A stretch of DNA of 64,000 bases from Pseudobutyrivibrio xylanivorans (GTDB lineage Bacteria; Bacillota; Clostridia; Lachnospirales; Lachnospiraceae). The stretch's first letter is position 1; every line of letters starts with the position of its first letter. The notes beneath the pieces were generated by a model. The model saw only the letters and a program-made list of their open reading frames with translations. It did not search any database and was not told the origin of the DNA. Made by a program: the position numbers and the translations under genes. The DNA lies in assembly GCF_008935055.1 (NCBI RefSeq), contig NZ_CP043028.1, forward strand, positions 261,501-325,500, written 5' to 3'. Positions 18,594-46,152 of this stretch are shown here, piece after piece.

Positions 18594-19625
18594 TTAACTG
18601 TCTTTCTTGTTGTCATCCTTATCCATTGTATATATTCCAGCCAGTGCAATTGTCAGAATAACAATTCCCATAAGAGCTATTATTATAAAGTATGAAACGT
18701 ATCGATGTTTGTCATCAATATCTACTATTGCTTCTGGAACATCTTCGTCAGGAATTGTAAGCTCTTGTCTTCCACTAAGTGGAACCTCTGGCTCAGTAAT
18801 CTCTGTTGCATCACCTTCATCATCTACAGCTTCATCATCTACAGCTTCACCAGTCTGAGCTACCGCTGCTTCCGAATCGGCATCACCTGCCTGAACTCTA
18901 TTATTATTAACTGGAAGATTTTCAACGGTCTGTCTTGGGATCACCTGATAGATAGGCTCCGCAGCACCCTGAACTGTACTATAGTTAACTGTCTCAGAAT
19001 TTCTATAAACAGTTTTTCCAACATTCTTAGTATAGATAAAATCTACAACCTGATTAGCAACCAACGCTTTGATGTGAATGTTATCAGTATTTGAAACATA
19101 GCCATCGATATATCTGTGAGGAACATAAACCTCTTCACCTTCAGCACCGTAATAGGTTGCGTCATCTAAAAGTCTGTTTCCTGACTCATCTATGAATCGA
19201 ACTGTGTAAGGAACAACTTCTCCAACACCATAGGCGATTACATAAGTCTCATCCTGAGTAACTGTAAATGCTGAGCTTGAAACAGTGTCATTGCTTCCGC
19301 TTCTTCTCATTCCCTTTACATAATACTTGGAATAATAAACTTCATTTCCCGCCTCATCTTCTGTAGTAACAGGAGAAATCTCAACCTTTACCTTTGGATC
19401 AAAGATAAATTCATCACCGTAATTCAGTCCGCCAACTGTGATGCAATCTGAATCTGTACCGACGAATTTGGCACCTTCCTCACCTGTTCCTCCGAGGATA
19501 ATTTTGATTGTGTAGGTATAAGGCTGGCTCTCTGCAGCCTTTGCAGCCATAGGAAAAGTAGCCGCTAAACCAAGCACTAAAGTCATCGATAATATTAAGC
19601 CAGTAATCTTATTTATCCTCTTCAT
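18594..19625 (-). CDS. MucBP-like membrane-anchored surface protein (unit B, module part 5)
   Basis: A 343-aa protein: signal peptide (1-30), an extracellular domain, a MucBP-like repeat (VRFIDESGNRLLDDATYYGAEGE.., about 143-190), an acidic linker with VPLSG, and a C-terminal membrane helix (about 310-332). No LPxTG, so anchoring is by the membrane helix. Paralogues occupy the same place in unit C (28609-29742) and unit D (40095-41258). It follows the (S/N)PxTG gene by one base in all three units, so it is translationally coupled. Possibly a base or adhesin subunit of the fibre; mucin binding is only a family association. Confidence 0.75.
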   Translation of the reverse strand: MKRINKITGLILSMTLVLGLAATFPMAAKAAESQPYTYTIKIILGGTGEEGAKFVGTDSDCITVGGLNYGDEFIFDPKVKVEISPVTTEDEAGNEVYYSKYYVKGMRRSGSNDTVSSSAFTVTQDETYVIAYGVGEVVPYTVRFIDESGNRLLDDATYYGAEGEEVYVPHRYIDGYVSNTDNIHIKALVANQVVDFIYTKNVGKTVYRNSETVNYSTVQGAAEPIYQVIPRQTVENLPVNNNRVQAGDADSEAAVAQTGEAVDDEAVDDEGDATEITEPEVPLSGRQELTIPDEDVPEAIVDIDDKHRYVSYFIIIALMGIVILTIALAGIYTMDKDDNKKDS

Positions 19626-19626
19626 A

Positions 19627-20454
19627 TCAGGCTACCTCCTTCCTACCTTTCTTTGAAATAATGAAATACCATCCTATTAGAACCATTCCGACTAATAATC
19701 CAGCTGTGCATCCAACAAGTGGAACAATTGAATCACCTGTCTGTGGGCTTCCACCTGCCAGTGGTGTCGTCGGCTCGTCGATTGCAATTACCTGCTGTCC
19801 ACCAGGTATTGTATAAACTTCATTTCTTGTAACTGTATTGTTTATCACCTTATCCTGAGGTTGCTCTGCTTTTTCAACACCAAACTTCACATCCAGTGTT
19901 GCCAGCTTGTACATGTAAGCATTATCCTGAGAGTTTCCATCAAGATTAATCTGAATTGTTACTGTACCAGCGCCACCATTATTCAGCGTTCCAAGTGGGA
20001 AGAAGGCTTCCTTACCCTCTGCCAGATTACTTTTCACCTGATTAAGACCTTTTACAGTACTTTCACCACCTAAAACATCACTGTCAAAGATGATTGTTTC
20101 CTTTCCATCTACTGTATAGGAAACTTTATAAGAATATGCGCCGCCAGTGGCTGAACTTGCAGAACCATCTGCACTCTTATCCTCCAGTGAATTAATGATA
20201 TCTGTTGAAAGATAAAAGTTTGTAGCATCTGCTGATGTGTTTTTGTATCCAACTGAGTATGTAATCACATCACCAGGCATTACATCTGTAATTGTATTTT
20301 TACTAACATCGTAGGTGGACTCCAACTTGCTGCCATTATAGGTCACGTCCCAGCTTGCACTTTGTGTCTTGGCCTCTGCCGAAATCATTGTGGATGTAAG
20401 TCCTGCTACTGTCAGTGCCAGAGCAAGGACTAAATTTAATATTTTATTTTTCAT
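19627..20454 (-). CDS. SPQTG-anchored surface protein (unit B, module part 4)
   Basis: A 275-aa exported protein: signal peptide (1-28), a beta-rich body (MPGDVITYSVGYKN, VTIQINLDGNSQDNAYM) resembling SipW-associated or gram-positive surface beta-sandwich domains, then PTTPLAGGSPQTGD, a membrane helix and KKGRKEVA. SPQTG fits the (S/N)PxTG motif recognised by class B sortases such as C. difficile SrtB, not the LPxTG of the pilins. Paralogues: 29744-30556 (NPKTG) and 41260-42126 (NPQTG). Likely client of the SipW-SrtB fusion. Confidence 0.8.
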   Translation of the reverse strand: MKNKILNLVLALALTVAGLTSTMISAEAKTQSASWDVTYNGSKLESTYDVSKNTITDVMPGDVITYSVGYKNTSADATNFYLSTDIINSLEDKSADGSASSATGGAYSYKVSYTVDGKETIIFDSDVLGGESTVKGLNQVKSNLAEGKEAFFPLGTLNNGGAGTVTIQINLDGNSQDNAYMYKLATLDVKFGVEKAEQPQDKVINNTVTRNEVYTIPGGQQVIAIDEPTTPLAGGSPQTGDSIVPLVGCTAGLLVGMVLIGWYFIISKKGRKEVA

Positions 20455-20469
20455 CGCTTGCCCCTTCTC

Positions 20470-21201
20470 CTACTCTGTAGGCTTTCCATCAATAGTAATA
20501 ATGTTTCCATCATCCGCTGCTGAGCAGGTTGCCTTAACACCCCAGGCTGCATAGATTGCATCCTCTGAGTTATGGGTCTGAACTGCGTCAGCTGTAAGCT
20601 GAATGTATACCGATTCTCCATTGTAAGTGTATTCATTTACGATGGATGCTTCGGTTTCAGTAGTTGTAACAAATGATGTTACGGAATTGTCTACTGTAAT
20701 TCCTTCCAGGAACTGTGCCTCATTACCACAGGCCAGAGGTGAAGTCATGTAGTAAACTGCTCTTTCAGGAGTTGATTCTGAATCATTCAAATACCAGCCA
20801 TCAGCAATGTCCAATTTTATAAGTGAAGGATCAAGGTTTGTATTCTTCCCGTTTTCATCACTCCAGCTTTTTCTAACAACCACTCTCACATATTCACTAT
20901 AGCCAGTGTCTGCATTGGAGTTATTCACTACCTTCACATCTTCCTCATATCGTTTTCCGATTTTGAAGGAATCGTCCTTCTGAATCTCTGGAAACTGAAG
21001 ACCTTGTGTATCACTCAACGAAACATATTCACCATCTACATTTTCCATCAAATTCACTGAAAAGATTGCTGTTGAAAAATTCACTCTCTCAGCTGCAGTC
21101 TGATAAACCATTGCGGCCCGTGTAGCTGTGGCTGTGCTTGTACCAATCACCAGAATTCCAAGTGCCAAGAGTAACACAGGACTTTTATATAATTTTCTCA
21201 T
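20470..21201 (-). CDS. SipW-type-signal surface protein (unit B, module part 3)
   Basis: A 243-aa exported protein with an N-terminal hydrophobic segment ending ATRAAMVY, followed by a beta-rich body. Conserved blocks across its paralogues at 30581-31300 and 42141-42893 are SYSEYVRVVVRKSW-like, DPSLIKLD, DAVQTHN and AAWGVKA. The N-terminal style (helix, then Ala-rich cut site, then FSTAIFSVNL-like strand) matches TasA/CalY-type proteins processed by SipW peptidases. Probably a fibre subunit or fibre-associated protein. No sorting signal or C-terminal helix. Confidence 0.7.
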   Translation of the reverse strand: MRKLYKSPVLLLALGILVIGTSTATATRAAMVYQTAAERVNFSTAIFSVNLMENVDGEYVSLSDTQGLQFPEIQKDDSFKIGKRYEEDVKVVNNSNADTGYSEYVRVVVRKSWSDENGKNTNLDPSLIKLDIADGWYLNDSESTPERAVYYMTSPLACGNEAQFLEGITVDNSVTSFVTTTETEASIVNEYTYNGESVYIQLTADAVQTHNSEDAIYAAWGVKATCSAADDGNIITIDGKPTE

Positions 21202-21213
21202 ACCTGCTCCTCC

Positions 21214-21744
21214 TTACTGTGCTGGTGTTGTATCTGATTCCTGAACTTCTGTGGCAGGTGCTTCCTGCTGTGTCCTTGAGATCTTTGCATTCCAATCAGC
21301 TGATGGATTTCCCGCTTCGTCATATAAAACCTTGGTTGCTTCCTGAACAATTACTACGTTGAAATCATAATCCGAATTACTTGTGATATGAATCTTCAAC
21401 TCTGTTTCAGTAGCCTCGCCTGGTGAAACCGGTTTGCTGTAGTAATAGAAATCTCCATCTCCTTTACTCCAGCCTTCAGCCAACTGTGGTGTCAATGTGC
21501 AGGTCTCTGGAGCAATCGCCTTCGCTCTGACGAAAATGTCATAATCTCCGGTATTCTTAATGGTAATGCTCTTCGTCATTCCCTCAACCTTTTCATCGAT
21601 TCCAGGTTTGCCATCACCAATCTTCAGATCGAATTTTCCAGAAGTCTCTACGGTGTCTGTGAAGTAAGCTATGGCTGGCCTTACTGCTGAGATGCTAAGG
21701 ACTATTGCGGCTGCAGCAACTAAACTTAATCCAATTCTTTTCAT
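21214..21744 (-). CDS. TasA/CalY-like fibre protein (unit B, module part 2)
   Basis: A 176-aa exported protein. The start is RIGLSLVAAAAIVLSISAVRPAIAYFTDT: a hydrophobic helix ending AIAYFTD, the hallmark of SipW-dependent substrates (TasA, TapA, camelysin). The body has the matching beta-sandwich pattern: KSITIKNTGDYDIFVRAKA (about 63-81), a GDFYYYSKPV strand, NVVIVQEATKVLYDEAG. The tail is Pro/Glu/Thr-rich. Paralogues: 31300-31878 and 42893-43387. Likely subunit of an extracellular fibre matured by the signal-peptidase half of the SipW-SrtB fusion. Confidence 0.78.
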   Translation of the reverse strand: MKRIGLSLVAAAAIVLSISAVRPAIAYFTDTVETSGKFDLKIGDGKPGIDEKVEGMTKSITIKNTGDYDIFVRAKAIAPETCTLTPQLAEGWSKGDGDFYYYSKPVSPGEATETELKIHITSNSDYDFNVVIVQEATKVLYDEAGNPSADWNAKISRTQQEAPATEVQESDTTPAQ

Positions 21745-21763
21745 ACTTAGTTACCTCACTCTC

Positions 21764-22813
21764 TCACTGTGGAATTCTGTTGAACTGCTCAACCTTGTTT
21801 CCATCCTTATCTATCCAAAAGATTGTTCCATCATCCACTACGAAGTTATTCTCTGCTGCGATTCCGCCAATTATCAGCTTATCGTTGTATTTATTTTCGA
21901 ATTCTACAACCTGTGGTTCATCAGCAGATATGATTGCTGTTTTGGTATCGCCACCAACTGTATCGTAGCTTGAACCTGTGTAGGTTTCTGTTACTGTAAC
22001 CTGTGCCTGAGCTGGAAGCTTATCAATTGTTCTTGATCTTGTGCCAGCTGCTGTAAAATCGATGGTATATACATTACTGAAAACAGTCTCATCATCTATC
22101 TTTGCTGTTACTGTATATACGAAGCTCTGTCCCTGAAGTGATGCATTGAAATTATCTAACGTCTTTTTGATTTCAAGACTTCCGTATCTTTCATATGCCT
22201 GAGACTTTAGATTAAATACTGATGTATAATCCCATGCATCTGATTGACCTCTGCCAAACTTGATATAGTCACTTGTTGGTGCACATATAATATATGGTGT
22301 GAACTTGTAGCTATATCTTTCATCCATAGCTTCTCTTGGAATGTAAAGATATATGCCTGCGCCATTTTCAATGTTCTGGCTCACTGATGATTGCTGGTTG
22401 CTCCGATCTAAAGTCATGACCATATCTGGCTCAAGGTCAGTTGCCTTTGTCACTGCCTTTTCAACTATGCTTGTCTTGACCTGCTCAACTGATACCTCTA
22501 CGTCAGAATTATCAATGAGATTATTAAGAATAGTTAAATCAATTCCGGCATCAGCAAATCTTCCATCCAAGCTTGGCTTTCCCACTTCACTTAAGGTTGC
22601 CAGTTTGTATATTTCGATTTCTACTTTACCGGCATATTCGGAAGCGAAAACTGAACCATCCTTCAAATCAACAAGTGCTGTAAGAGTTACCGTCCTGTCA
22701 GTTTCCACTCTAGGAGCTGCCATCAGCTGGTGGGCTGTAAGTATGCTTGCAACCATGGCTGCTGCTAAAAATATTCCAACTATTTTCTTTTTCCAAAAAT
22801 GCTTTTTATTCAC
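21764..22813 (-). CDS. isopeptide-domain-like surface protein (unit B, module part 1)
   Basis: A 349-aa exported protein: signal peptide (about 1-33), a first domain (about 40-210) with VEIEIYKLATLS and GAGIYLYIPREAM strands, and a second Cna-B/DUF7601-like domain (about 212-325; YGSLEIKKTLDNF..FVYTVTAKIDD..VTVTETYTGSSY..VVEFENKYN). The K..E pattern in that domain is what self-made isopeptide bonds use. No sorting signal. Paralogues: 31894-32901 and the C-terminal part of the 921-aa protein of unit D. It heads the five-part module and may link the fibre to the wall or pilus. Confidence 0.7.
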   Translation of the reverse strand: MNKKHFWKKKIVGIFLAAAMVASILTAHQLMAAPRVETDRTVTLTALVDLKDGSVFASEYAGKVEIEIYKLATLSEVGKPSLDGRFADAGIDLTILNNLIDNSDVEVSVEQVKTSIVEKAVTKATDLEPDMVMTLDRSNQQSSVSQNIENGAGIYLYIPREAMDERYSYKFTPYIICAPTSDYIKFGRGQSDAWDYTSVFNLKSQAYERYGSLEIKKTLDNFNASLQGQSFVYTVTAKIDDETVFSNVYTIDFTAAGTRSRTIDKLPAQAQVTVTETYTGSSYDTVGGDTKTAIISADEPQVVEFENKYNDKLIIGGIAAENNFVVDDGTIFWIDKDGNKVEQFNRIPQ

Positions 22814-22921
22814 TGGCGACTCCCTTCCAAGCCACTAGGCCTTTGACTCATTAATCGCTCTGTCTTCATCGTCCAAAGGACTACACTTGTTAAAATGCAT
22901 TCCTTTCAGCTATGAAGTTTT

Positions 22922-22955: not shown

Positions 22956-22979
22956 GGATTCCCTTTTATTTAATTTTGC

Positions 22980-24383
22980 TTATTTTGCTGACTTCTTTTT
23001 GTTTGCGTAGAACAAACCTGCTGCTGCACTCATGAAAAGAATTCCAAATACTGTAAATGCTACTGTTCCAGAACCACCTGTGAATGGAAGTGTAATAAGT
23101 GTGGTATCTGACATAATTGCTGTTCCAATCATGAACTTAGCATCTTCTTCGTCAGGATCATCAATCCAACTATCTGAAGTAACTGCTACAGGATTTAAGT
23201 TAAGTGAGTAACCCTGAGGTGCTTCAATTTCTTCGAACCAGTATGTCTTATCCTTATCAAATCCAGATGCGATTGCGATTCCGCCTGCTGTTGTAAGTGG
23301 ATTTACCTTTGCCTCTGCTAATGTTCCCCATCCTGTAAGCTTTCCTTCTGCATCGAGGATTGCGTACTTAGCATTTTCATCTATACCATCTTTGATTACG
23401 AACTTTGCTCCATTAAGAAGCTCTGGCTCTTCGCCTTCTGCTGGAACGTTTGTCTTCATAATCTGAAGCTTAGATGTATAAGACTTAACTGTCTTTCCTG
23501 TTGTGTTGTTTACGTTTACATCGTTTGAAATTGCTGAACCAGTTGCGATTGCTGTGTAAGTAAGTGTTAATGTTGCGTTTGCATACTTGTTATCTCTTGT
23601 TGAATCTGTTGGATCATTGATTACCCAATCAGCTGCCAAATCAATTGTCAAGCTGTTGTTTGAAGGTGCGATGTAATATGTCTTTGAATCATTTCCGATT
23701 GTTGCAACAACCTTTGTCTTGTCTGCATTTTCTCCTGTTTCAAGCTTGTACTCTCCACCTGTAAGGGTATCAGTTACAACGAATGCTGTTGTTGAACCCA
23801 TTGGAGAATAAGGAACTACAACTTCAACTGAGTATGGGATTTCCTTTCCAAGTTCAACGTACTCATCACCTTCGCCGTAGGTCTTGTTGATGGTTGTAGG
23901 AGTCTTCTTAGCCTTTACTACTGCATTCTTAACACCATCTAAGTCATCATTGTAGTTTATAGCTGCAATCATTGGGCTGTAGGTAAATCCTTCTTCAGTA
24001 GCTTTGATTACATATAAACCAGGCTCTGCATTTGTGTAGGTACCTGTAAACTGTTCTGTGACTGATAATGCTTCAAGCTTGTTACCGAACTTTACAACTC
24101 TGTCAGCTTCTGAAGAAGTCTTGTAATCCTCTATCTTTGCCTGTGCTGTATCACCTGCAAATCCTGCAAATAATTCCTCGCTGGCTGCATCTACAAATGA
24201 CCATCCTGTCTTTGTGGTTGTGTCTGCCTTGACTACCTGACGGATATACAATGTTGCATTCTCAGCGCCAGTTACTGTAATTGTACCCTTTGGAACTGTT
24301 CCCTCAGCCGATGCTGTTATGGTCATTCCAAGTGCCATTACAAGTGTAGTGGCCAGTGCTAAAATCCTCTTAAACCCTTTCAT
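22980..24383 (-). CDS. LPFTGG shaft pilin (unit B)
   Basis: A 467-aa major-pilin-type protein: signal peptide (1-26), an N-terminal domain, a fimbrial D2-type isopeptide domain (about 165-300; LGKEIPYSVEVVVPY), a Cna-B-like domain with the E-box YWFEEIEAPQGYSL (about 389-402), then LPFTGG (about 440), membrane helix and KKKSAK. Class C sortases polymerise such subunits through LPxTG and a pilin lysine. It lies 12 nt after the tip adhesin gene. Unit B has no sortase of its own, so the class C enzymes of unit C probably act on it. Confidence 0.88.
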   Translation of the reverse strand: MKGFKRILALATTLVMALGMTITASAEGTVPKGTITVTGAENATLYIRQVVKADTTTKTGWSFVDAASEELFAGFAGDTAQAKIEDYKTSSEADRVVKFGNKLEALSVTEQFTGTYTNAEPGLYVIKATEEGFTYSPMIAAINYNDDLDGVKNAVVKAKKTPTTINKTYGEGDEYVELGKEIPYSVEVVVPYSPMGSTTAFVVTDTLTGGEYKLETGENADKTKVVATIGNDSKTYYIAPSNNSLTIDLAADWVINDPTDSTRDNKYANATLTLTYTAIATGSAISNDVNVNNTTGKTVKSYTSKLQIMKTNVPAEGEEPELLNGAKFVIKDGIDENAKYAILDAEGKLTGWGTLAEAKVNPLTTAGGIAIASGFDKDKTYWFEEIEAPQGYSLNLNPVAVTSDSWIDDPDEEDAKFMIGTAIMSDTTLITLPFTGGSGTVAFTVFGILFMSAAAGLFYANKKKSAK

Positions 24384-24395
24384 ACGCTTACCTCC

Positions 24396-27300
24396 TTAAT
24401 TACGATATTTACAAAACGCTTTGGATTTTTTTCTGTTTCTATAGAAGAGGAATACAGATGTCATCATGAATACCAAACCTAATGCTGTTGTTCTGTAAAT
24501 TCCGTTTCCACCTGTCTCTGGTAGCTCATAAGCATGAGCAAAATTCTTAAAGTAGAACCTGTAGGTGATAACACTTCTATTGATTTCAGGCTCCACAACT
24601 ATCTGTGTCTGCTCAACCCCCTCTGCATTCACTGGTATAACAGTTGGTACATTGTTTACATCAAGCTGTATCTTCCAGGTTTCATCACTCTTGGCAAATC
24701 CCGCAGGTGCTGCCAACTCTGAAAGGATGTAGGTCTTATTTACTGCAATCTCTTGATCAGTACCAAGAGTCCACTCGATAAGTCCTAACTTATCCTCATC
24801 AGATGAGCTGACGCCTGTGTATGAATTATCTGTTCCATCTTCCTTCAGCTCGAATACTGCTGTTGCAAGCTTTCTGCTACCATCTTCGTTTGTTTTGTAG
24901 ATTTCCCAAACGTTCTTGATGTGTACCTGCAGTACTGGATGATTGAAGAATCTTTCTGCTCCTACTTCACCTCTGTAGTCATATACAACCTTTCCTACTG
25001 TGTTCGAACGGAATCCAGCCTTTCCTTCAGAAGTCCAATTTTCTTCATCTACGGATGCATTGTCTGTGTCGGTCTCACCTTCTGCATTGTACCCACTGCT
25101 GATGAATTCTGAATATGCTAAATCAGTTGGAACAATATTCATGAATACAACCTTGTAACCATATTCAGGATTAACCTTGTAATCATCTGGAAAATCAAGA
25201 GTCACTGTCTTGGTTCTCACATCATACTTTGCAGTCAGATGATATGTGGCACCTCCGTCAATCACATCGAAGTATGCTTCTGTTCCTTCTGGATTGTTTG
25301 CATCACCGATGACTCCGTTTTGCTGAGCCGAAACATATGCTGGATTGTTCCAGATATCAACACCATCCACATCAACACTTATGTAGAATTGTGAGCCTGT
25401 TACTGGTTCTGCGTAATCACTAAGTGTATCTGTAATTGTTACATTGCTGGCTCTATTCTTTACTTCTGTTTCATCCTCACTTCCTGAAGGTTTTGAAACA
25501 ATTCTTCCTGCAAGATTTTTGAATAATGCTGCAACCTCAGATGACTTAACTGTTGAAACACTCTTATCGCTTACATTTGAAGCTGCCTCAGAAATACGTT
25601 CCAAAACTTCTCTAGGCTTTAATGCAACACTTGAGCCATCCTCTTCAGTAAACTTGAATGTAGTATCCTTGAAATCTACGCCTATTGTGTAGAAGGAATC
25701 ACAAGTAAGCTGTCTTGCTACTGCTTTTGCTTTGAAATATGCTGTCGGATCAAATCTGCCTCCATATCCCTGACCAGTTCCGTAATTAGTAGGCTCTCCA
25801 TCTGTCAGGAAGATTACGATGGTCTTGTCTGTGCCCTCTCGCTTGGTAGCTGTAATATTCTTTGCTCGTTTAAGTCCTGCTTCGTAATTAGTTGCACCAT
25901 CTGTACTTGTGCTGATGGTAAATCCACTGTTTGATCTCCAAGCCGAATTCACATCATCTCCCGATGCGTTGTAATCAAAGTAAACAACCTTCCAAGATGC
26001 ATCTACATTTCGCTTTGTCTGAATTACATCTCTAAGAGTTTCAACTGCCTCCTTAACATGAACTATTCGTTTAACTCCATTAACCTTATTTCCCATAGAA
26101 CCTGACTTATCGACTACAAGCACGATGTCAACCTTAGTAGGCTCCATTGTATCTACGATTTCCTCGTTGGAAATAACTGTTGTGTAGTCATAAGCAGGAG
26201 GTGAAAATTTCACTCCTAGGTCGTAATTATCATCACCGTTATAACGAATGAACTTTGAAAGCTCCTCTGGTTTCTGATAATCAATCTCTGTGTATGTAAG
26301 AAGATTCTTAAATACTACATGGGTACATTCTGATTCAGTAACAGTTATGTCAACTTTTCGACCTCCTATCGTTCCTGGGTCATACCTATTTATTTCTGTT
26401 CCGTCTACAAAAGTTTTTGTAGTAAAATCTCCCAGTGTATAAGCCTCACCACTAACTCCTTCTTCAATTACCTGATATGCTCCCGCTGGTGTTGAGGTAA
26501 GTGCAAAGTCAGCGCTTTGACCAGTCTTTAATAAAAACTTTCCTTCAGCATCTGTATAACGTCTCTCAGTTCCAACAAAGAATGCTTTTTCTCCGACCGC
26601 TGTTCCATCAGCCTTCAGTAGTTTAAAGATGTACGCTGTATCCGTATCTGTTGCTGCAGTTCCTGTTGCCTTTTTCATGATGCTTAGCGCTGCATCCTTC
26701 TCGTATATGATAGACAAGTACAATCGAGTTGCTTTGCTTTCATCACTTACTAATTCAACTTCATTGCCAACAGTCGTTGACTCTCCTAAGTATCCCCTTA
26801 TCCACTTGTTGCCGTATGAATAACGATATTTAAATCGATCTATTTCCTTGTACTCATCATTAACCTTCAACTCTGCTCTTAAGAATCTGTAGCCATCTTT
26901 TGCTGGAGCGAAGCTGCTATTTTTAATAATCGTTTCTGTTGAAGTCTCACTACTTAATGGGAATGTTATTTCATTTGTAGAGAATTCCTCCATCTCAACA
27001 TTATCTTTAGTATAGTACGAAGTAATAATCTTTATGTATTTTGTATTTATCGTTGACGACCACTTAATTACATAAGTCGAGAAGCTGTTGCTTGTAAATT
27101 CTGCTTTAGTAAGAGCACTGTCATTTTCCAGCTTTAAGCTTGCTCTTCCATCTTCTGTAAGATTCTCAAGCTTGTTCTCTTCCTCATTGAAATGAACCAT
27201 TTCAACTTCAGTTGTACAATCGTCAGGATTTTCCACAACTACAGGTTTAACTGCCTGCTTGTACTCCATCATTACTGTGACATCATCACTTGGTTCAATT

Positions 27301-28265: not shown

Positions 28266-28423
28266 ATGATTCTTCCTCACTAAAACCTTGCCACTGATTA
28301 CTAAATTACTCTTCAAAAAACTGTTACTCACAATAACGTTTTCTGTTACAAAATATAACTTTGTTACTCGAAGTAACTTTTGTAGGATGACTATATCAAT
28401 TATTTTGTGACAAGTCTGTGAAC

Positions 28424-28448
28424 TGGCAGCTATTGTCAGATTTTGGCA
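28424..28448 (-). promoter_or_regulatory. TGCCA-N15-TGCCA box, unit B
   Basis: Two exact TGCCA half-sites with 20 nt start to start on the minus strand, about 160-180 nt upstream of the tip adhesin start. Confidence 0.7.
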
Positions 28449-28538
28449 AGAAGTTTTCTTGTTTAATACACAATTTATGAACGTGATGTGAACTCCTCAA
28501 CCTAATAACTTTTACCCCACAGTTCTAAAAATGGGCAC

Positions 28539-34686: not shown

Positions 34687-34780
34687 ACCTGACCTCTCCT
34701 TAATGCTGCACAATTAACCACATTAATTACCATAACATATAAATGTGTCCTAAATATTTAGGGAGAGCAAATGATATATA

Positions 34781-39200: not shown

Positions 39201-39862
39201 TTCTCTACAACATCTGTATTGTTTTCTTCTATAGTAGCCTCTTCTACATTAGCTTCTACTATAGTAGTTTCTTCTGTCACTTCCTCATTAGGCATTTCAA
39301 AAACACATGCCTCAATAAATTCTTCACCGCAATCAACGCAGTGCTTTAAGTGTGTGCCATCACCATTACTTGTGTACTTGCAATTAGCATGCGCACACTC
39401 TTCAGTTGTTTCTCCCTCAATCTCTCCTTCAATTATTTCTTCATTATCACCCTCAGTAGAAGACTCCTCAGAGGATTCATCTGATGTCTTTTCTGAATCA
39501 GAATTATTATCCTCTGTATTACTCTTGTCCTGTTCTTTTAAATCGTCATTTAAGAAATCTTCATCATTTTTTGAATCGGCACCTGGCTGTTCTCCCAAAT
39601 TATCAGCCTGTGTCTCTCCTGACAGACCAGCATCGGTCTTTCCTGCCTCCCCTGCAGCATCATCAGAAGAGCTGCCAGCGTCGTCAACAGATGGTTCGTT
39701 TGATTCTATATTCATTTCTCCCTTTTCAATAGCCTCATCTGCGACCGCCGTCATAGCACTTGCATCAGCCTGCTGTGCAAACGCTCCTATCGGCTCAGCA
39801 ACAAATAATGCAACCGCAACAGCGACTGACATTACCCGCTTCAAAACCAGATACCTTTTCAT
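34856..39862 (-). CDS. LPQTGG tip adhesin read in frame into the shaft pilin (unit C)
   Basis: A 1668-codon open frame. Codons 1-1205 are a tip adhesin: signal peptide (1-29), acidic Ser/Glu-rich region, CVDC (175-178) and CIYC (281-284) split by a Thr/Glu stretch, a beta-rich domain, a fibro-slime/PA14-like domain (about 610-880; FKFSGDDDVYVYIDGK, DIGGIHDAVKGQI), Cna-B-like domains, TLPQTGG, membrane helix and a basic end. There is then no stop: codon 1206 is the ATG of the shaft pilin. Losing one base of an A5 run just before it would give TAATG. So this is either a true polyprotein with an internal signal peptide, or one with a recent indel. First gene of unit C. Confidence 0.75.
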   Translation of the reverse strand: MKRYLVLKRVMSVAVAVALFVAEPIGAFAQQADASAMTAVADEAIEKGEMNIESNEPSVDDAGSSSDDAAGEAGKTDAGLSGETQADNLGEQPGADSKNDEDFLNDDLKEQDKSNTEDNNSDSEKTSDESSEESSTEGDNEEIIEGEIEGETTEECAHANCKYTSNGDGTHLKHCVDCGEEFIEACVFEMPNEEVTEETTIVEANVEEATIEENNTDVVENTEDTISTEVVEEGIENIEATDNTNIVCQDTVDEVSLSENEEVAQKIVDTEIKTDLNKRTCIYCGYEELIEEENEEDKTFEVQVGDFKITAVVPAGAFDQDVEFRADRVTLTEHQKQLADEATTPENIDMYYAFDLRFVVLSEDGTEYEVEPNEGYAVNISIASATEVFDEIVHINDDDSIEVIDASICEEALEFEAEGFSIYALEGIGENNVLYKNSAYGAAYCSNASWAFIAPFDNAERNDRFAIQVQFNGAYKKFAPYSDNIKDCFIYGSNGSAHKGPNGEYQTDPNFKFNFVAPENYYIKSIVVERGYELGRLEFNPGNNATSYEFEAQMIRTVNGQFNKIIVELEPVTAELTGTTTVVNGATLINYVNNTKVFGEGFWFITGGSGQRDNDGDHCHYGHVYQGAAGNVLANGQFYLAKYGPYSSHPLFPNNVVNYQYNKSNYDYISKAYYDTGVVFSKDKEGYWTIDSSQAKYVYDSNHNQVVPKMGGSQFRPFENDDNHFGMILPINFSVNDTGTTNGKDTVFKFSGDDDVYVYIDGKLVLDIGGIHDAVKGQINFKTGEVLIQGDYNQEGHMLTSSLDENYSCYFKNSNGVEAKGIGTTNIYNILPENNVKELSQKEHVLTVVYFERGANVSNCKISYNFTKNETRTVDYENFKKDEKGAALAGAEFTLFTDEACTKIAEIANGQSAVTVSDQNGTISFKGVAAGVIPDGGNSSSRVYYMKETNAPEGYKTPEAAIWKLTVTAYSDGGKSYSLIALNDAAQYLSLDAWNNKVGDGWTDVKAIKNQLDVPEKTFRITKHVSNGTDVVPDPDARYKFVMKKIVDNVWNVMANQTYKIGDTEYITGQDGSFYLKADETAIFEHLYEDKFVICEVGVESQKFKLSSYNTRIVVDDDMANAVYYESSYEADRWVYVDFTNLAANTNDPTVFEKKVDFYNMMTFTLPQTGGGGIHFFTISGVLLMLLATLLLNKELINKYKEKNVMKKFKKVIATALAAVMMMAMSVTAFAAENTASITIQGLKDDATVYLYTVATLKDNKVDVKDWAKNSYKFDYADNTATNVTETAMTADQVTAIKTAFAGANLKAEKTLKASNGAVTFTELEAGVYYIVATSEQATYSPMVTVAITRDNKGKYVAASQTVTAKGTDNDLTKTADDQFVHNGQEVNFEITKQIPDFANKFVVYDYATNLSDLTQVAVNVNYADEDHAYSFTKVSEADGVIKYALDLTEVVYDAQTKEFKHDNAGKTLKITYTATVTSPEFYKNEATYQVNDGDELGRITVNGFEGDITLTKTGTDGKKLAGAKFTLTKKGKAATDTEPAVEDKVLTFTYDSTKKEYVYDPASTNTELVTGEEGILKVTGLDEGTYQFTETEAPQGYSINENYEQMTKTIGESTQSVHVTLTVEDSTLIKLPFTGGIGTTIFTVLGVAIMVLAAALYFVAIRKNAVK

Positions 39863-39990: not shown

Positions 39991-40015
39991 TGGCAAGATA
40001 ATCCATTTTTTGGCA
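39991..40015 (-). promoter_or_regulatory. TGCCA-N15-TGCCA box, unit C
   Basis: Two exact TTGCCA half-sites 20 nt apart on the minus strand, about 130-150 nt upstream of the adhesin start and abutting the unit D terminator. Closer to the gene, 39896-39938 form an imperfect palindrome with TTTGAACA/TGTTCAAA ends. Confidence 0.7.
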
Positions 40016-40055
40016 AAAAAATAATCTAGCCCCTTATTGGAACTAGATTATTTTT
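40015..40055. terminator. unit D terminator, bidirectional
   Basis: AATAATCTAG / CTAGATTATT with a 13-nt loop, A-tract and T-tract on both sides. On the minus strand its seven-T tail runs directly into the unit C TGCCA box. Confidence 0.8.
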
Positions 40056-40094: not shown

Positions 40095-41258
40095 TCAACG
40101 TTTTTCGTCATTTTTTGGTGGCAATGCAAATGTAGTTTTTTTCTTCTTATTCACAATATACATTGCAATTGAAAATGCAATTATGCACACCACTAAAATG
40201 ACAATTGTTACGATAACCGTTCTCATTAGATGTTCACTTTCTAATGACTCAGGTACTTCCTCATCAGGAATTGTTGTTGGCTCCTCTCCTGCTAATGGAG
40301 TCTCTTCGTCGCCAATTGTGATTGTATCTCCACCCGACTTTGGTGTTTCATCATCTTCGATCGTTGTAGTATCTCCAGCAAGAGGAGTTTCCTCTTCTTC
40401 GATTGTTACATTCTCGGTAGTATTTGCTGCCACATTTGTAGTTGTTTCTCTTCTATTATTTACCACCTGAGGTCTCTGAGTTGTAGTCGAAGTTAACTGT
40501 GTACCTCCATCTAAATACTCATATTCATAGGTGTATGTTGGCTCACCCTGAACATAAACCGTAGTGGTTTCTTCAATAGTTTCGTATGTAATCGTTGCAG
40601 GTAATTTATTATATGTAAATTTAATAACTGTGTTATCTGCAATTTTTTCGGTCTTTTCAGTGGCATCTGGAGTGTAGTCTATAATGTGTCGCGCAGGTAC
40701 TACTGCCTCCTCGCCTTTTGCACCATACAATGTTTCCTCTGGATAAAGGGTATTTCCCTTTTCATCTAAATACTGAACCTTGTATGAAATTACTGAGCCA
40801 ACACCGTAAGCTGCTACATAGGTTTCATCACCTGTTACATTGATGCTAATAGCTGTTGTGCTATTCGAACCTTCTGGCTTATATAAATCATCTGCTCCGG
40901 CAACTCTAAGTCCCTTTACATAATACTTTGAATTACCATCACCTTTAATCTTTATAAGCTTAGCAGCATCAAACGTGATTTTATCACCGTAATTTAATCC
41001 TGATATAATAAGTTTAAAATCAACTTTTTCTCCAGCCTTGTTGGTTCTTTTTCTAACCTCAGTTTTTATTTCCGGTTCATTTTCCGTTTTGGTGAACTGT
41101 AATGCGCTTTCATCAAAGCTTGCATCCTCATTATCACCAATTACAATATTCACTGTGTAAGTGTATGCCGCATCTGCTGTTACCACATTGCCCCAGGTAA
41201 GTGCAAACACAAATACCATTGATAGGATGCAACCCAAAAATCTTTTCATACCTTTCAT
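40095..41258 (-). CDS. MucBP-like membrane-anchored surface protein (unit D, module part 5)
   Basis: A 387-aa paralogue of 18594-19625 and 28609-29742. Signal peptide (1-31), extracellular domain with YTVNIVIGDNEDASFDE and AYGVGSVISYKVQYLDEKG, a MucBP-like repeat (about 165-215), a Thr-rich linker with ETPLAG twice, DETPKSGG and DEEVPES, a membrane helix (about 352-373) and KKKKTTF tail. One base after the NPQTG gene; last of unit D. The repeated acidic-P-L-A-G motifs are typical of Clostridial surface proteins; no sortase is known to use them. Confidence 0.75.
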   Translation of the reverse strand: MKGMKRFLGCILSMVFVFALTWGNVVTADAAYTYTVNIVIGDNEDASFDESALQFTKTENEPEIKTEVRKRTNKAGEKVDFKLIISGLNYGDKITFDAAKLIKIKGDGNSKYYVKGLRVAGADDLYKPEGSNSTTAISINVTGDETYVAAYGVGSVISYKVQYLDEKGNTLYPEETLYGAKGEEAVVPARHIIDYTPDATEKTEKIADNTVIKFTYNKLPATITYETIEETTTVYVQGEPTYTYEYEYLDGGTQLTSTTTQRPQVVNNRRETTTNVAANTTENVTIEEEETPLAGDTTTIEDDETPKSGGDTITIGDEETPLAGEEPTTIPDEEVPESLESEHLMRTVIVTIVILVVCIIAFSIAMYIVNKKKKTTFALPPKNDEKR

Positions 41259-41259
41259 C

Positions 41260-42126
41260 TTAGGCTACCTCCTTTTTCTTATTTAACATGAGCACTGCGT
41301 AACAACCAATAAGTCCCATTCCAATGATGAACATTACTCCACAAACAACAAGCGGAAGAATTGAATCTCCAGTCTGTGGATTTCCAGCATTATCTCCACC
41401 TGCAAGTGGGACATCCGAATCGTCAATTGAAACAACCTCTGTTCCATTTTCAAGAGTCTTGAGAATCTTCTTTACAATTGATCTCTTTTCAGAAACTGGC
41501 ACATTCTTTGTAATGGCGTTAACCTTTGTGACTTTGTTTGTTTCGGTCTTGCTGTACTTAGCTGACTCAGTAGACTCAGCACCAAACTTGATATTCAAAT
41601 TTGCCTGCGTAGCCATATAGGCATTAGTCTGTGAATTTCCATCCAAGGTGATAGTGATTGTTACCACTCCGCTACCACCTGCTGGGATAGAACCAAGAGA
41701 AAAATAAGCACCTTCGTGTCCGCTTACCTGATTCAGACCAACTACCTCGTCTGCATCACCGCCAACTGTCTCACTATCAAAAAGTGTCTCCTCATTGTTA
41801 ATAATTTTGAAGGAATAAGCGCCTCCCTGTGCACCAGATGTATCCTCAAGTGATTTAACTACATCTGCATTCATATAGAAATCAGTGCTCTCTGTAGTGG
41901 CGTTTATATACTTAACTGAATAAGTAATTGTATCACCAGGCATAGCATTTTTTATTTTTGCTGCGTTACTGTCATAGTTAGACTCGAAAGCTGTTCCATT
42001 ATAAGTTACATTCCAGCTATAGCTAAGTCCATCTGACTCTGCTGCTTTTGATGTTTCCTTTACGCCTGTAAATCCTGCTACCACAAGAGTGAGAGCAAGG
42101 ACTAAATTAAATAAACCCTTTTTCAT
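41260..42126 (-). CDS. NPQTG-anchored surface protein (unit D, module part 4)
   Basis: A 288-aa exported protein. Signal peptide (1-28), SYSWNVTYNGTAFESNYDS, MPGDTITYSVKYINAT, VTITITLDGNSQTNAYM as in its paralogues, a basic Val/Lys-rich segment (about 195-225), VPLAGGDNAGNPQTGD, membrane helix and KKKEVA. NPQTG is a class B sortase type signal. No sortase gene lies in unit D; the SipW-SrtB fusion of unit A is the best candidate enzyme. Confidence 0.8.
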   Translation of the reverse strand: MKKGLFNLVLALTLVVAGFTGVKETSKAAESDGLSYSWNVTYNGTAFESNYDSNAAKIKNAMPGDTITYSVKYINATTESTDFYMNADVVKSLEDTSGAQGGAYSFKIINNEETLFDSETVGGDADEVVGLNQVSGHEGAYFSLGSIPAGGSGVVTITITLDGNSQTNAYMATQANLNIKFGAESTESAKYSKTETNKVTKVNAITKNVPVSEKRSIVKKILKTLENGTEVVSIDDSDVPLAGGDNAGNPQTGDSILPLVVCGVMFIIGMGLIGCYAVLMLNKKKEVA

Positions 42127-42140
42127 ATCCTACTCCCCTC

Positions 42141-42893
42141 CTATAGATTTTCACCATCAATACTGATAAGATTTCCTGACGCGTCAAACTCTGCAAGTAC
42201 ACCCCATGCTCCAAGCATTGCTTCCTCAGCATGATGAGCCTGAACTGCATCAACTCTTACTTGAACCTCGAAGGTCTTTCCTTCATAGCCCTCAATTGTA
42301 ACGCAACCATCTTCAGAAGTTCTGCTATAAGCATTTATTACTCCCTCGCCAAGCGAAACAGAATCAATAAGTGTTACTGCCTGTCCCTTGGTGATAGGCT
42401 TTGTATAATAGAATACAGCGGACTCTTTATTGCCTGCGCTGGTTTGAAGCATTGACCATCCTGACTCCGTATTAAGTGTAATTAATTCAGGATCAGCACC
42501 GGTATCTTTCTTACCATTCTCATCAATCCAACACTTAGTAACAGTGACTCTGACGTACTGTGGAAATTCGCCATCAGAATTATTCACAACTCTTACCTCT
42601 TCAGGGTAATTGTGATTAACCTTAATTTCTTCTTTTCCCTTTGAAACATCATCAAGAGATGTAAAAACTAGTTTACCCGGCTTATCGTTTGTTCCCGCAA
42701 CTGTAACAAAGCTTCCATCCTGCTTTTCCTGTAAATCAACTGTAAACTCTGCAGTCTCGAACTGAACTCCCTGTTCCTGGCTTGATGTAGTCTCAGCCGC
42801 TCTTGTGGCCTGCGTTACACCAATGGCACTTCCTGCCACAAGAATCACTCCTGTTGCAAGTACGAATAAAGGTTTCTTCATTAATCCTTTCAT
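42141..42893 (-). CDS. SipW-type-signal surface protein (unit D, module part 3)
   Basis: A 250-aa paralogue of 20470-21201 and 30581-31300: hydrophobic N-terminus ending TQATRAAE, strand VQFETAEFTVDLQEKQDG, conserved YVRVTVTKCW, DPELITL, DAVQAHHAEEAMLGAWGV. Its start overlaps the TasA-like gene stop by one base, as in unit C. Secreted; no anchor. Confidence 0.7.
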   Translation of the reverse strand: MKGLMKKPLFVLATGVILVAGSAIGVTQATRAAETTSSQEQGVQFETAEFTVDLQEKQDGSFVTVAGTNDKPGKLVFTSLDDVSKGKEEIKVNHNYPEEVRVVNNSDGEFPQYVRVTVTKCWIDENGKKDTGADPELITLNTESGWSMLQTSAGNKESAVFYYTKPITKGQAVTLIDSVSLGEGVINAYSRTSEDGCVTIEGYEGKTFEVQVRVDAVQAHHAEEAMLGAWGVLAEFDASGNLISIDGENL

Positions 42894-43387
42894 TACTGAC
42901 CACCTCCATTCGCTGTGTAAATCTCTTCGTTAACTGACTTCTCATCCCAAGCGGCTGTTCCATCAGCTTTCACCTTTGCAGCTTCCTCGATGACAATTAC
43001 ATTGAATTCCTCACCCTTATCACCATTAGGATCAATTTTGACCTTCATCTGATTGGAGGTTTTCTTTGGCTCGATTATCTGATTGAAATAATAAAAACCA
43101 TCTGCTTTAAGTTCCCAGCCAGTATTTTCAGTTTCATAGGTGAGTGGGTGAGTACTTCCTGCAAACACCTTAACTCTGGCATAAACAGGATAGTCTCCAG
43201 TATTTTCTACCCATATAGTCTTCTCAAATCCATTAACTTTCTCGTGAGGAGTGATTTCATACTTGCCAAATCTCACTGTTCCCTCAGCTGAATGTGTATC
43301 TGTAAAATATGCCATCGCTGGCTTTACAGCAACTGCTCCAAGCATCAGAAGTGCAGCTGCAGTAATAATCAAGGTTTTCTTTTTCAT
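42893..43387 (-). CDS. TasA/CalY-like fibre protein (unit D, module part 2)
   Basis: A 164-aa exported protein: KKKTLIITAAALLMLGAVAV, then AMAYFTDT, FEKTIWVENTGDYPVYARVKV, DGFYYFNQII and FNVIVIEEAAKVKADG. The pattern matches its two paralogues and SipW substrates generally. It overlaps the end of the 921-aa gene and the start of the next gene by one base each, so translation is tightly coupled. Likely fibre subunit. Confidence 0.78.
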   Translation of the reverse strand: MKKKTLIITAAALLMLGAVAVKPAMAYFTDTHSAEGTVRFGKYEITPHEKVNGFEKTIWVENTGDYPVYARVKVFAGSTHPLTYETENTGWELKADGFYYFNQIIEPKKTSNQMKVKIDPNGDKGEEFNVIVIEEAAKVKADGTAAWDEKSVNEEIYTANGGGQ

Positions 43388-46152
43388 TACTGTGCACCCC
43401 CTTCCGTATCCTTAAAGCTCTTGTCCTTATTGAAGACAAACTCAACAGTCGAATCAATCAAGTCTCCAAACTGCTCAACAACCTGATCTACAATTCTACT
43501 GAATACATTTTTCATGCTCGTACCAATGTTTGTTCTGCCATCATAGGTGTTTACAAACTTGACTGTCTTCGTTTCATCAGCATCCACGCTAACCTTCTGC
43601 AAGGTATCGCCAACCGATTTATAGCTTGCGCCCTCATATACTTCCTTTACAGTAACCTCGATTCCCGCAGGTACATCAATCAATAAATCATTCTTTGTTC
43701 CTGCTTCATCAAATTCATAAGAGAATACATACGAATAATCGGTGCTTGCATATCTATAGGATACTTCAAATACGAATGTTGCCTTTCCGAGTGGCTTTAC
43801 GAACTTCAAAAGTGTCTTTATGATATTGAGCTTACCAGTCTTAGGTGGCTCCTCATCTCTATTGAAGTTGTAGCTGATTCTACAATTTGATAAGTTCTTT
43901 CCACGCTCAAAGTAAATAACTGTAAGTTTATGTTCATCATTAGCAAAACCAGAAAGTGTAGTGCCCAGCGTTGTATAAAGGTTCTGGCAATCCATATCCA
44001 TCTTCTTGTAGACAGAACCATCTACTGAAGATGTCATTTGAGTATCGTAATCTCCCTGAATCAGAATATCTCCTGATTGGAAATTAATCTGACCCTTAAT
44101 CGCATCATGGATACCGCCAAGATCAAGTACAAGCTTTCCGTCGACATAAACATAAACATCATCGTCACCAGAGAACCTGAAAATCATATCATTGCCATTA
44201 TCATCCTTACCGGTACTATTAACTGTAAAGGTCATCGGAAGAACCATGGCGTAATGATTGGTTTCACCAAATGGTCTGAACTGTCTCTCTCCTTCTGTAG
44301 GAACAAGCACATTATCTTTGATTTCATATCTGGTACTATCACTATCTATTGTCCAGTAGCCATCCATGTCCTTTCTAAACTGAACACCTACATTTGACTG
44401 ATAATCAGAGATGTAATCATACGCACTCTCATTATCCTTGTAACTCTTATAGGTAGGGATAGGATTCTTCCCGCTTGTATCCTTTAAATTGAAGATACCA
44501 TTTTCAGTGTCATAGGTAGATGAAGCAAGTCCCTGCCAAACCTGATTGTAATAAACGTAGTTACTTGTACCATCGTACTGCTTACCATCTGTAAACAGGA
44601 AGGAATCACCAAATGCTGTCGTATCATTCTCGTAATTGATGAACTGCGCACCATTAACTATTGTAGTTTCCGCATTGTCATCAAACTGAACTGGAATCGG
44701 ATTCAAACAAACAACAACATAATTTGCTGCATAGCTTCCACCCATCTTCTTGAGAGTAAGCTCCACATCAAATGTCCTTGCATAATCAACTGGTGTATAT
44801 TTCCTATTCTCAACTGTTGGAATATTATCTGCACTTAATGGTAATGAGACCTTTCCAAGACCTACATAATTAATGTAATAATTCTCTGGTGCCTCGAAAT
44901 GGAATTTGAATGTATCATCATTCTCTGAACTATAAATGTAGTAGTGCCAATCTGCTGGATTATCGCTTGTATCCGATGGTGCAATATTTGAAAAGTGCTT
45001 TTCCTCAGAATTAACTCTGATAAGCTTAACTGCATATCTATCTGGATCATAGGCCTCCGCAATTGTGCTTACACCTGCAAGATGCTCTTCATCTGTTTCA
45101 GCATAACCGTATGGACTCTTTCCTGAAGAACCCTTTGAACCATAGAGAACACCACCTGATGTAGCCTCTGGCTCTGGTGCGCTAAACAATACAAATGGCG
45201 AGAAGCTAGATGCATCGTATGTAACAACTCCACCTTCAGCTGTGAAGGTTTCCTTTTCAATTGACCCCTCCTCTGGGAAATGTGCAACTGCATCAGGAGT
45301 AAAGCCAAGTGATGTAACCTTGACCTCAACATTCTTCTTTGGCTGGACAACCTCGCCATCAAGAGTAAATGTCATATCAATCGCAACAAGCTCATCCTCA
45401 TCAAATCGCTTAATAGAATATGCTTCCTTAAGAGCCTGCTCCTGAGCCTCAGTCATCTGATATTCAGATGCTGTAAACTCAAAGGTATCCTTCTCAAAGG
45501 TATCAGCTTCAACAAATACAGAAACCTTGTAATCCCCAACAGATTTCTCAAAGGATTTGTCTTCCTGCTTTTGTTCCTCTATCTCATCTGAGTCTTCATC
45601 CTTCTCTTCATCGAGTTCTGCATCATCCTTCTTGGAATAATCTTCATCAGACTCGTCCTTTTCTGAATCTTTCTCTTTAGAATCTTTCTCTTTAGAATCT
45701 TCCACTTTAGAGTCTTCCTCTTTAGAATCTTCCTCTTTAGAGTCAGCCTTCTTAGAGTCTTCCTTTTCTGCATCATCAATAGAAGCATCAGAATCTGTTT
45801 TCTCAGAATCAGCCTCTGCCTTCTCCTTGTTATCTTCTTCAGTTATATTGTCTTTGGAATTTGTATCAGAATCGTTAGAATTACCAGATGTATCGCCATT
45901 CTCCTCAACAACTTCTTTTGACTCCCCCGTTGCAGACTCCCCAGTCTGCCCTGTTGACTCATCTGCAGTGTCAACCTCCTGCTTTGTTTCACCCGACGAA
46001 TTACCTCCCGTATTCTCAGTGGTAGTTTCATCTGGTAAGGCTCCACCATCACCCTCGGCATATACACCAAAAGAGGTTGAGGCGAAAAGGATTAGCGCTA
46101 AAAAAAGCGCTAACATTTTGTGAAGTGTTGGTATCTTTTTAATCATACTCAA
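43387..46152 (-). CDS. hybrid fibro-slime adhesin fused to module part 1 (unit D)
   Basis: A 921-aa exported protein: signal peptide (about 1-32), a highly acidic Asp/Ser/Glu/Lys region (about 40-200) with 5-residue DSKEE-like repeats, a beta domain, and a fibro-slime/PA14-like domain (about 520-760; FRFSGDDDVYVYVDGK, DLGGIHDAIKGQI) close to the unit C adhesin. A C-terminal Cna-B/DUF7601-like domain (about 768-885; GKLNIIKTLLKF..VTVKEVYEGASY..VKFVNTYDG) matches the second domain of the 349-aa proteins. It has no LPxTG or membrane helix. So in unit D adhesin and module part 1 are one protein. First gene of unit D. Confidence 0.8.
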   Translation of the reverse strand: MSMIKKIPTLHKMLALFLALILFASTSFGVYAEGDGGALPDETTTENTGGNSSGETKQEVDTADESTGQTGESATGESKEVVEENGDTSGNSNDSDTNSKDNITEEDNKEKAEADSEKTDSDASIDDAEKEDSKKADSKEEDSKEEDSKVEDSKEKDSKEKDSEKDESDEDYSKKDDAELDEEKDEDSDEIEEQKQEDKSFEKSVGDYKVSVFVEADTFEKDTFEFTASEYQMTEAQEQALKEAYSIKRFDEDELVAIDMTFTLDGEVVQPKKNVEVKVTSLGFTPDAVAHFPEEGSIEKETFTAEGGVVTYDASSFSPFVLFSAPEPEATSGGVLYGSKGSSGKSPYGYAETDEEHLAGVSTIAEAYDPDRYAVKLIRVNSEEKHFSNIAPSDTSDNPADWHYYIYSSENDDTFKFHFEAPENYYINYVGLGKVSLPLSADNIPTVENRKYTPVDYARTFDVELTLKKMGGSYAANYVVVCLNPIPVQFDDNAETTIVNGAQFINYENDTTAFGDSFLFTDGKQYDGTSNYVYYNQVWQGLASSTYDTENGIFNLKDTSGKNPIPTYKSYKDNESAYDYISDYQSNVGVQFRKDMDGYWTIDSDSTRYEIKDNVLVPTEGERQFRPFGETNHYAMVLPMTFTVNSTGKDDNGNDMIFRFSGDDDVYVYVDGKLVLDLGGIHDAIKGQINFQSGDILIQGDYDTQMTSSVDGSVYKKMDMDCQNLYTTLGTTLSGFANDEHKLTVIYFERGKNLSNCRISYNFNRDEEPPKTGKLNIIKTLLKFVKPLGKATFVFEVSYRYASTDYSYVFSYEFDEAGTKNDLLIDVPAGIEVTVKEVYEGASYKSVGDTLQKVSVDADETKTVKFVNTYDGRTNIGTSMKNVFSRIVDQVVEQFGDLIDSTVEFVFNKDKSFKDTEGGAQ

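Follow-up and report, generated by a model that had tools for sequence, protein, structure and literature searches.

In a 64,000-nucleotide window of Pseudobutyrivibrio xylanivorans (contig NZ_CP043028.1, positions 261,501 to 325,500), a five-gene unit is present three times, as units B, C and D, whose genes we number 1 to 5 and whose protein families we call P1 to P5. We found that protein 1 is built like a pilin yet has no anchor of its own, and that the unit is a sub-assembly tied either to class C sortase pilus operons (B and C) or directly to a pilus-tip domain (D). On balance, we think it somewhat likely that proteins 2 to 5 form a SipW-dependent, TasA-like, non-covalent and cell-proximal stalk between an adhesive appendage and the cell wall.

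All 15 genes of the three units are open frames on the minus strand. The first-pass annotation of this DNA had reported the same five genes three times in the same order, and this was confirmed from the open frames and, for positions 2 to 5, by BLASTP of the window proteins. Among B, C and D, pairwise identity is 36-39% at position 2, 36-47% at position 3, 42-44% at position 4 and 30-37% at position 5, and the best match across different positions has E = 0.015. Hence, positions 2 to 5 are each one family. At position 1 the proposed homology stands for B1 and C1, which are homologous over their whole length (33%, E = 1e-44), and only partly for D1 (921 amino acids, aa), which has in common with them the DUF5979-type domain and the tail (36-37% over 108 and 151 aa). 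A further 616 aa of D1 match the fibro-slime pilus tip at 34856-39862 (35%), so the description of a two-domain isopeptide-like protein in all three units was wrong for D. In every unit a single base separates genes 4 and 5, as annotated, because the last codons of gene 4 (ending in EVA, AGGAGGTAGCC) double as the ribosome-binding site of gene 5. Among 39 such pairs at other loci, with mechanically assigned start codons, the gap lies between -4 and +7 in 29.

Protein 1 has a pilin architecture. In B1, a pilin domain (about residues 29-207, with K203) is followed by a CnaB-type domain (210-311) with the isopeptide-type residues K217/E276/N307 and by a tail from about residue 316. The N-terminal domain qualifies as a pilin fold, and a search of the PDB by protein 1 sequence gave nothing significant. 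Across 143 protein 1 sequences, a lysine stands in a pilin-type motif (K203 in 142, W194 in 142 and Y196 in 143), and by its position and conservation K203 is a putative linking lysine. An LPXTG-type C-terminal sorting signal is present in none of the 143. Hence, protein 1 may act as a base pilin, although it is not filed as one.

Relatives of protein 1 that carry an anchor occur where the module is missing. Eleven genomes of our family sample (120 Lachnospiraceae genomes) encode only the N-terminal domain of protein 1, with no P3 or P4 match in any of them. In each of the 11 proteins, a lysine stands at the corresponding place (by eye) and a sorting-type signal is present, which is PxTG in nine and VKTGD instead in loci L139 and L141 (L numbers denote loci and G numbers genomes). 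A class C-type sortase gene adjoins eight of the 11, and one is in frame with such a gene. Three of these rows are weak matches (G098, G025 and G066, E 1e-5 to 4e-4), and two proteins (L142 and L143, 677 and 708 aa) resemble backbone rather than base pilins. Tailed protein 1, in contrast, co-occurs with the module in nine of nine cases; G077 and G114, which match by the DUF5979 part only, were excluded from this comparison. Among the 11, the base-pilin-like protein of G012 continues in the same frame, after its FPQTG motif, into a sortase-like part (L138:4243-5556, by eye).

Natural gene fusions join the same parts. In five of 29 Pseudobutyrivibrio genomes (G120, G124, G132, G139 and G147), the protein 1 N-domain is fused to a P4-type anchor with PKTGD and a membrane stretch; the fusion lies in a C-type cluster and is not directly followed by P2-P5. 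In unit D the converse is seen: the tip is joined straight to the DUF5979-type domain and tail, and the unit encodes no backbone pilin of its own. Since anchored N-domain relatives and both kinds of fusion exist, P2, P3 and the P4 head would lie between pilus base and wall. The fusions thus suggest that rumen bacteria and other Lachnospiraceae combine sortase pili with TasA-type fibres in a single structure.

The module is also co-inherited. P4 was found in 27 of the 29 genus genomes, of which the wider loci were read in the genome of the window, in 12 others and in five more, the five outside the set counted here. The 12 others contain 23 full modules, and all 23 keep the gene order, one of them with genes 4 and 5 as one frame; four short pilin-anchor fusions and one remnant at those loci stand outside the 23. 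The first-pass annotation had proposed a search of other Lachnospiraceae, and this gave all five genes in order at 11 of 11 loci in eight other genera. P1 of L024 and P2 of L025, missed by the gene caller, were found on re-reading, and the position 1 protein has 1586 aa in L030 and 983 aa in L033. A class C sortase gene adjoins seven of the 11 loci, and a SipW gene lies closely downstream of gene 5 in at least seven. In the family sample, the P3 profile matches 17 of the 120 genomes (own included) and the P4 profile 18. P4 lies within 2.5 kb of 18 of the 20 foreign P3 places, and P3 is present at 18 of the 21 P4 places; the exceptions are weak matches (E 1e-4 to 9e-4), and at the one in G033 a wider profile finds P4 next door. 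Unrelated proteins at the same position, or modules in isolation, which the first-pass annotation had named as counting against it, were not found, apart from the partial homology of D1. Its assembled multiprotein fibre survives as a co-conserved unit, but as a sub-assembly rather than a complete fibre: a free-standing five-protein fibre was rejected as the complete account, given the pilin-like nature of protein 1 and the membership of the pilus genes in the system.

Beyond these loci the composition varies. L035-L041 (six other genera and a second G028 locus) carry P2-like genes, SipW, P3, P4 and a large adhesin, with P5 at all except L040 and no match to a class C sortase; L042 (G033) is like them, without P5 and with a weak sortase match. 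In a sample of the class, 66 of 391 genomes match at E 0.001, and outside the family only seven do so at E < 1e-10; several of the ten class-sample loci that were read have P2-like genes and SipW. A scan of named genomes gave 29 loci, all from Pseudobutyrivibrio or Butyrivibrio fibrisolvens 16/4.

We built trees of P2, P3, P4 and P5 by a quick method, each from 25 or 26 labelled rows of the genus and an outgroup of 10 or 11 rows; the L119 B unit, with genes 4 and 5 in one frame, was excluded from the P4 and P5 trees. In each of the four trees the labels B, C and D change twice, which is the minimum and agrees with the duplication and divergence proposed at first pass. B and D each lie on one side of a branch (support 92-99) and C does not, and in the P3 and P4 trees a branch with support 100 separates the genus rows from the outgroup. 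On the simplest reading, whole units would have been duplicated on the genus stem, C-like first, and since been inherited as units.

One enzyme gene follows unit B (17105..18352, minus strand). Its 415-aa product is a SipW-type signal peptidase fused to a class B sortase, and it scores above NCBIfam cut-offs as both: as signal peptidase I of the archaeal/endoplasmic reticulum type with TIGR02228 (96.7, cut-off 51.85) and as class B sortase with TIGR03064 (165.1, cut-off 153.75). The SipW half reaches 94.7 against the Bacillus SipW model NF046067, below the cut-off of 190. Motif residues of both halves are present, namely SGSM and THR, which we take to be the catalytic motifs of a SipW-type signal peptidase, and H300, C396 and R402, presumably the His/Cys/Arg catalytic motif of a class B sortase. 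The fusion is a single frame in 26 of the 29 genus genomes, and none was found in G135 and G136 (81 and 86% complete). In G130, sortase B (L121:2463-3239) follows the B unit and SipW (L122:2309-2800) the D unit, both intact, which makes this genome a natural split of the fusion. Among the matches listed for other family genomes there is no one-frame fusion; G057 has SipW and sortase B as adjacent genes. An apparent fusion in G013 was discarded as two adjacent genes with an in-frame TAG between them.

Proteins 2 and 3 carry no sorting signal. AYFTD is invariant in B2, C2 and D2. With TIGR04088 these score 10.3, 16.6 and 17.9 bits, below the cut-off of 19, and with TIGR04090 (BsaA family) 28.8, 25.1 and 29.8 bits, where the cut-off is 60. 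Protein 3 has no family match and is homologous only to protein 2; without signal peptides, P2 and P3 are still related at 94% probability over 59 columns.

Protein 4 has the marks of a wall-anchored protein, with PxTG, a hydrophobic stretch and a basic end, and its NF033073 and NF053819 scores are under their cut-offs. PxTGD is present in 25 of 25 genus rows (window included) and in one of 11 rows of other genera, where the proline is mostly gone. This fits a link between PxTGD and the fused enzyme, and the sortase step may be peculiar to the genus; L028 has a sortase B next door, yet its P4 has AVQTGD. We rejected homology of the P4 head to P2, P3 or P5, as the probabilities collapse once signal peptides are removed (P4/P5 from 98% to 14%, P2/P4 from 70% to 1.1%). 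A P5 sequence search of the PDB gave nothing significant. As a side observation, words of the TPLAG, VPLAG or VPLSG type precede the membrane stretch of proteins 4 (at 19627-20454, 29744-30556 and 41260-42126) and 5 (at 18594-19625 and 40095-41258); for FctB of the group A Streptococcus (GAS) FCT-3 region, LPLAGE is given as the sorting motif (excerpt of PMC7900414).

The protein 1 tails share a pattern with those of adhesins. The loose form [VILMA]xNx[FYLIVW], picked after most tails had been seen, fits 44 of 44 tails and 121 of 502 other frames, and the stricter [VI]xNx[FY] fits 26 of 44 and 33 of 502. The 44 tails come from 36 protein 1 or D1-type proteins and eight adhesins; three short pilin-anchor proteins and a 66-aa piece were excluded. 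At loci of other families, three of four hand-picked adhesins fit the loose pattern (chance 0.046).

We propose how the parts could work together. Protein 1 would take the place of the base pilin: its linking lysine would receive the last backbone pilin from a class C sortase, and polymerisation of the pilus would stop there. Proteins 2 and 3, processed by SipW, would form a short fibre, into which the conserved C-terminal NxF tail of protein 1 would dock as the first strand, probably through strand complementation. The last N-terminus of the P2/P3 fibre would end on protein 4, held in the wall or membrane through its C-terminal xTGD signal, and membrane protein 5 may be the partner of protein 4, assisting at the membrane. 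In unit D, the protein 1 hook carries the adhesive tip by direct fusion, and the tip would thus be mounted on the stalk without a pilus. The single SipW-sortase B enzyme would serve all three units, cutting the signal peptides of proteins 2 and 3 and anchoring the PxTGD proteins 4.

Several results weigh against such a stalk. The TasA-likeness draws on putative SipW-type signal peptides and sub-cut-off BsaA-family matches, because the P2 and P3 profiles found no TasA and nothing significant in the PDB. With the P4 profile, the TasA row was non-significant (E = 0.16), and the mature P4 head has no detectable relation to P2 or P3. Outside the genus, most P4 proteins have no proline at the PxTGD position, so that anchoring by sortase may not be a general feature. 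The tail as a copy of a TasA-like donor strand was unsupported by a score matrix of 16 positions built from the 143 protein 1 sequences, which gave means of -14.96 on P2 N-termini (-15.13 shuffled) and -13.63 on P3 N-termini (-14.95 shuffled). The matrix also did not clearly pick the adhesin tails of other loci (12 tails at -11.1 against -14.05, standard deviation 7.0, for other C-termini); hence, their likeness rests on the looser pattern. At loci of other families, that pattern fits five of eight adhesin-like frames of at least 600 aa judged near P2/P4 (L194, L195, the first of L199, L200 and L201, not L198, the second of L199 or L202). Finally, Clostridium perfringens BsaA polymerises without its neighbouring SrtB (excerpt of PMC7395162).

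A BsaA fibre that works alone, together with the relatives that have no class C sortase (L035-L041 and the loci of other families), would suit two separate appendages, a sortase pilus anchored otherwise and a free TasA/BsaA-like matrix fibre of proteins 2 to 5, that are only co-regulated. We consider this unlikely, since protein 1 would then be a pilin-like protein with no anchor, and since the pilin-domain/P4-anchor and tip/DUF5979-tail fusions and the constant company of tailed protein 1 and module (nine of nine) argue for one structure. It is rather improbable that proteins 2 to 5 and the SipW-sortase B enzyme are assembly factors, as chaperone or scaffold, outside the finished appendage. 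Precedents are SipA/LepA, which some streptococcal pili need together with a class B sortase and which is regarded as a chaperone or scaffold (excerpt of PMC7900414), and CapP of Bacillus cereus, which is chaperone-like for CalY/TasA filaments (excerpt of PMC13082335). However, SipA/LepA lacks catalytic residues whereas the fusion here has the motif residues, P4 carries the anchor that protein 1 lacks, and that anchor is fused to a pilin domain where P2-P5 are missing. Very improbable is a covalent stalk, in which SipW-sortase B would polymerise or cross-link proteins by way of the PxTGD in protein 4, so that two covalent segments would result from different sortase classes. In its favour are the polymerisation of some GAS pili by a class B sortase (excerpt of PMC7900414), the PxTGD of genus P4 and the fusion of the enzyme to SipW; against it, proteins 2 and 3 lack a sorting signal and the motif is degenerate outside the genus.

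The stalk of proteins 2 to 5 may be part of something wider, which we put forward tentatively and with less confidence than the stalk itself: a hybrid appendage class in which one non-covalent, SipW-dependent stalk serves both covalent sortase pili and lone adhesins, the CnaB-plus-NxF-tail hook is a second display code of Clostridia beside LPXTG, and the fusion couples signal-peptide cutting with sorting. If the stalk is real, it would join two fibre-building systems thought separate, a surface protein without LPXTG need not be unanchored, and the conserved C-terminal hook becomes searchable. The split, adjacent and fused states of SipW and sortase B would offer a handle on why some pili need a signal peptidase homologue and a class B sortase. 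The hybrid class, if true, would have implications for what SipA/LepA does in streptococcal pili, a role as yet unexplained.

The units and their enzyme share an upstream repeat, TTGCCA-N15-TGCCA (minus strand). It occurs exactly three times in the window (0.02 expected), always intergenic, before D1 (46261..46286), the C pilus tip (39991..40016) and the B pilus tip (28424..28449). Five sites are found at one mismatch (1.6 expected), including one upstream of the SipW-sortase B gene (18475..18500) and one inside gene C5. The whole genome has 11 exact sites and none of the reversed pattern. The window and genus loci, 541 kb together, contain 47 sites at one mismatch or fewer, against three in 166 kb of a Markov control; many are upstream of tip genes, and some are intragenic or face away. 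Three of the eight genome sites outside the window (L204, L206 and L207) lie 110-280 bp from surface-protein genes, two of them facing the other way. Having this site in common speaks for the three units being expressed together with the one SipW-sortase B enzyme. In addition, 17 identical bases, AAGTCTGTGAACTGGCA (plus strand), stand at 18463-18479 and 28412-28428, upstream of SipW-sortase B and the B pilus tip, and are the sole two window matches at three mismatches or fewer. TTGCCA sites are also near an apparent remnant D unit in G147 (L117:1337-1880), with a shortened P5 and a headless P4 anchor.

Along the minus strand, the cluster starts with unit D and continues with the C pilus tip and backbone, two class C sortases, unit C, the B pilus tip, the B backbone, unit B and the SipW-sortase B gene. 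D1 (43387..46152) consists of a fibro-slime pilus-tip domain (TIGR02148 at 42.3 bits, below the cut-off of 45, and BLASTP), the DUF5979-type domain and the anchorless NxF tail. It is followed by D2 (42893..43387), an AYFTD subunit, putatively TasA/BsaA-like, with a predicted SipW-type signal peptide; D3 (42141..42893), an ATRA-type subunit remotely related to D2; D4 (41260..42126), an NPQTGD protein with a C-terminal sorting-type anchor; and D5 (40095..41258), a MucBP-like membrane protein. Unit D has no sortase of its own. The C pilus is a single frame of 1668 aa (34856..39862) with a fibro-slime tip (LPQTG) and a backbone pilin (LPFTG) and no stop between them; the backbone has its own start at 36247 with AAGGAG, and in most Pseudobutyrivibrio loci read, tip and backbone are separate frames. 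The two class C sortases (33814..34713 and 32924..33811, the second at 255 bits with NF033745) are 44% identical and are two of five sortase genes in the genome (Pfam sortase search). Unit C comprises C1 (31894..32937), base-pilin-like without a sorting signal, the AYFTD subunit C2 (31300..31878), the ATRA-type subunit C3 (30581..31300), the NPKTGD protein C4 (29744..30556) and the MucBP-like membrane protein C5 (28609..29742). The B pilus has an LPETG tip, of von Willebrand A type by inspection only (24396..28331), and an LPFTG backbone pilin (22980..24383; NF033902 at 71.7 bits, below the cut-off of 95, with the LPXTG anchor above its cut-off). Unit B comprises B1 (21764..22813), the AYFTD subunit B2 (21214..21744), the ATRA-type subunit B3 (20470..21201), the SPQTGD protein B4 (19627..20454) and the membrane protein B5 (18594..19625; MucBP at 19.2 bits, below the cut-off of 23). 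Thus LPXTG-type signals are on tips and backbones and PxTGD signals on the three proteins 4; for units B and C, class C sortase, LPXTG tip and backbone pilins stand in one operon, as in sortase-dependent pili. A 1094-aa coiled-coil surface protein with a hydrophobic C-terminal stretch and 36-nucleotide repeats lies 18 bp past SipW-sortase B (13802-17086), and a protein with a similar start is found at L207, beside another TTGCCA site.

TasA-type fibres and sortase pili have been described as alternatives, and a recent paper stresses 'sortase-independent' (excerpt of PMC13082335). Our searches of open-licence papers gave no description of their combination that we recognised; for Butyrivibrio proteoclasticus, a pilus-island-like cluster with a signal peptidase is mentioned (excerpt of PMC2914790). 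The operons here resemble sortase-dependent pili (SpaCBA/SpaFED, C. perfringens CppA) in having tip, LPXTG backbone and class C sortases together, along with a small pilin with a linking lysine and an isopeptide-type CnaB domain; the rules and chemistry of basal pilins were established elsewhere (excerpt of PMC8244301). They differ in that the equivalent of the base pilin has no LPXTG-type signal and is followed by four extra genes. With the Bacillus TasA-TapA-SipW and CalY fibres they share a SipW-type peptidase beside likely dedicated substrates and an AYFTD-type mature start. In TasA fibres, each N-terminus is donated as a strand to the next subunit, and TapA has been proposed to give the first strand (excerpts of PMC9674648 and PMC10151520). 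In contrast, the subunits here would be joined to a sortase pilus, are of two unlike kinds with an xTGD anchor protein and a membrane protein, and match no TasA sequence in the PDB at E < 0.1. The C. perfringens sipW-bsaABCRSD operon with srtB also has SipW, a BsaA-family protein and sortase B genes side by side, but SrtB is separate there, whereas SipW and sortase B are one polypeptide here; the excerpt of that source gives the operon no pilus role (PMC7395162). Streptococcal SipA/LepA likewise pairs a signal peptidase homologue with a class B sortase, both needed for one pilus (excerpt of PMC7900414), but SipA/LepA is without catalytic residues, whereas the enzyme here unites both motif sets in one fusion, and the cluster contains class C sortases as well. 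We regard the system as a hybrid of two known kinds.

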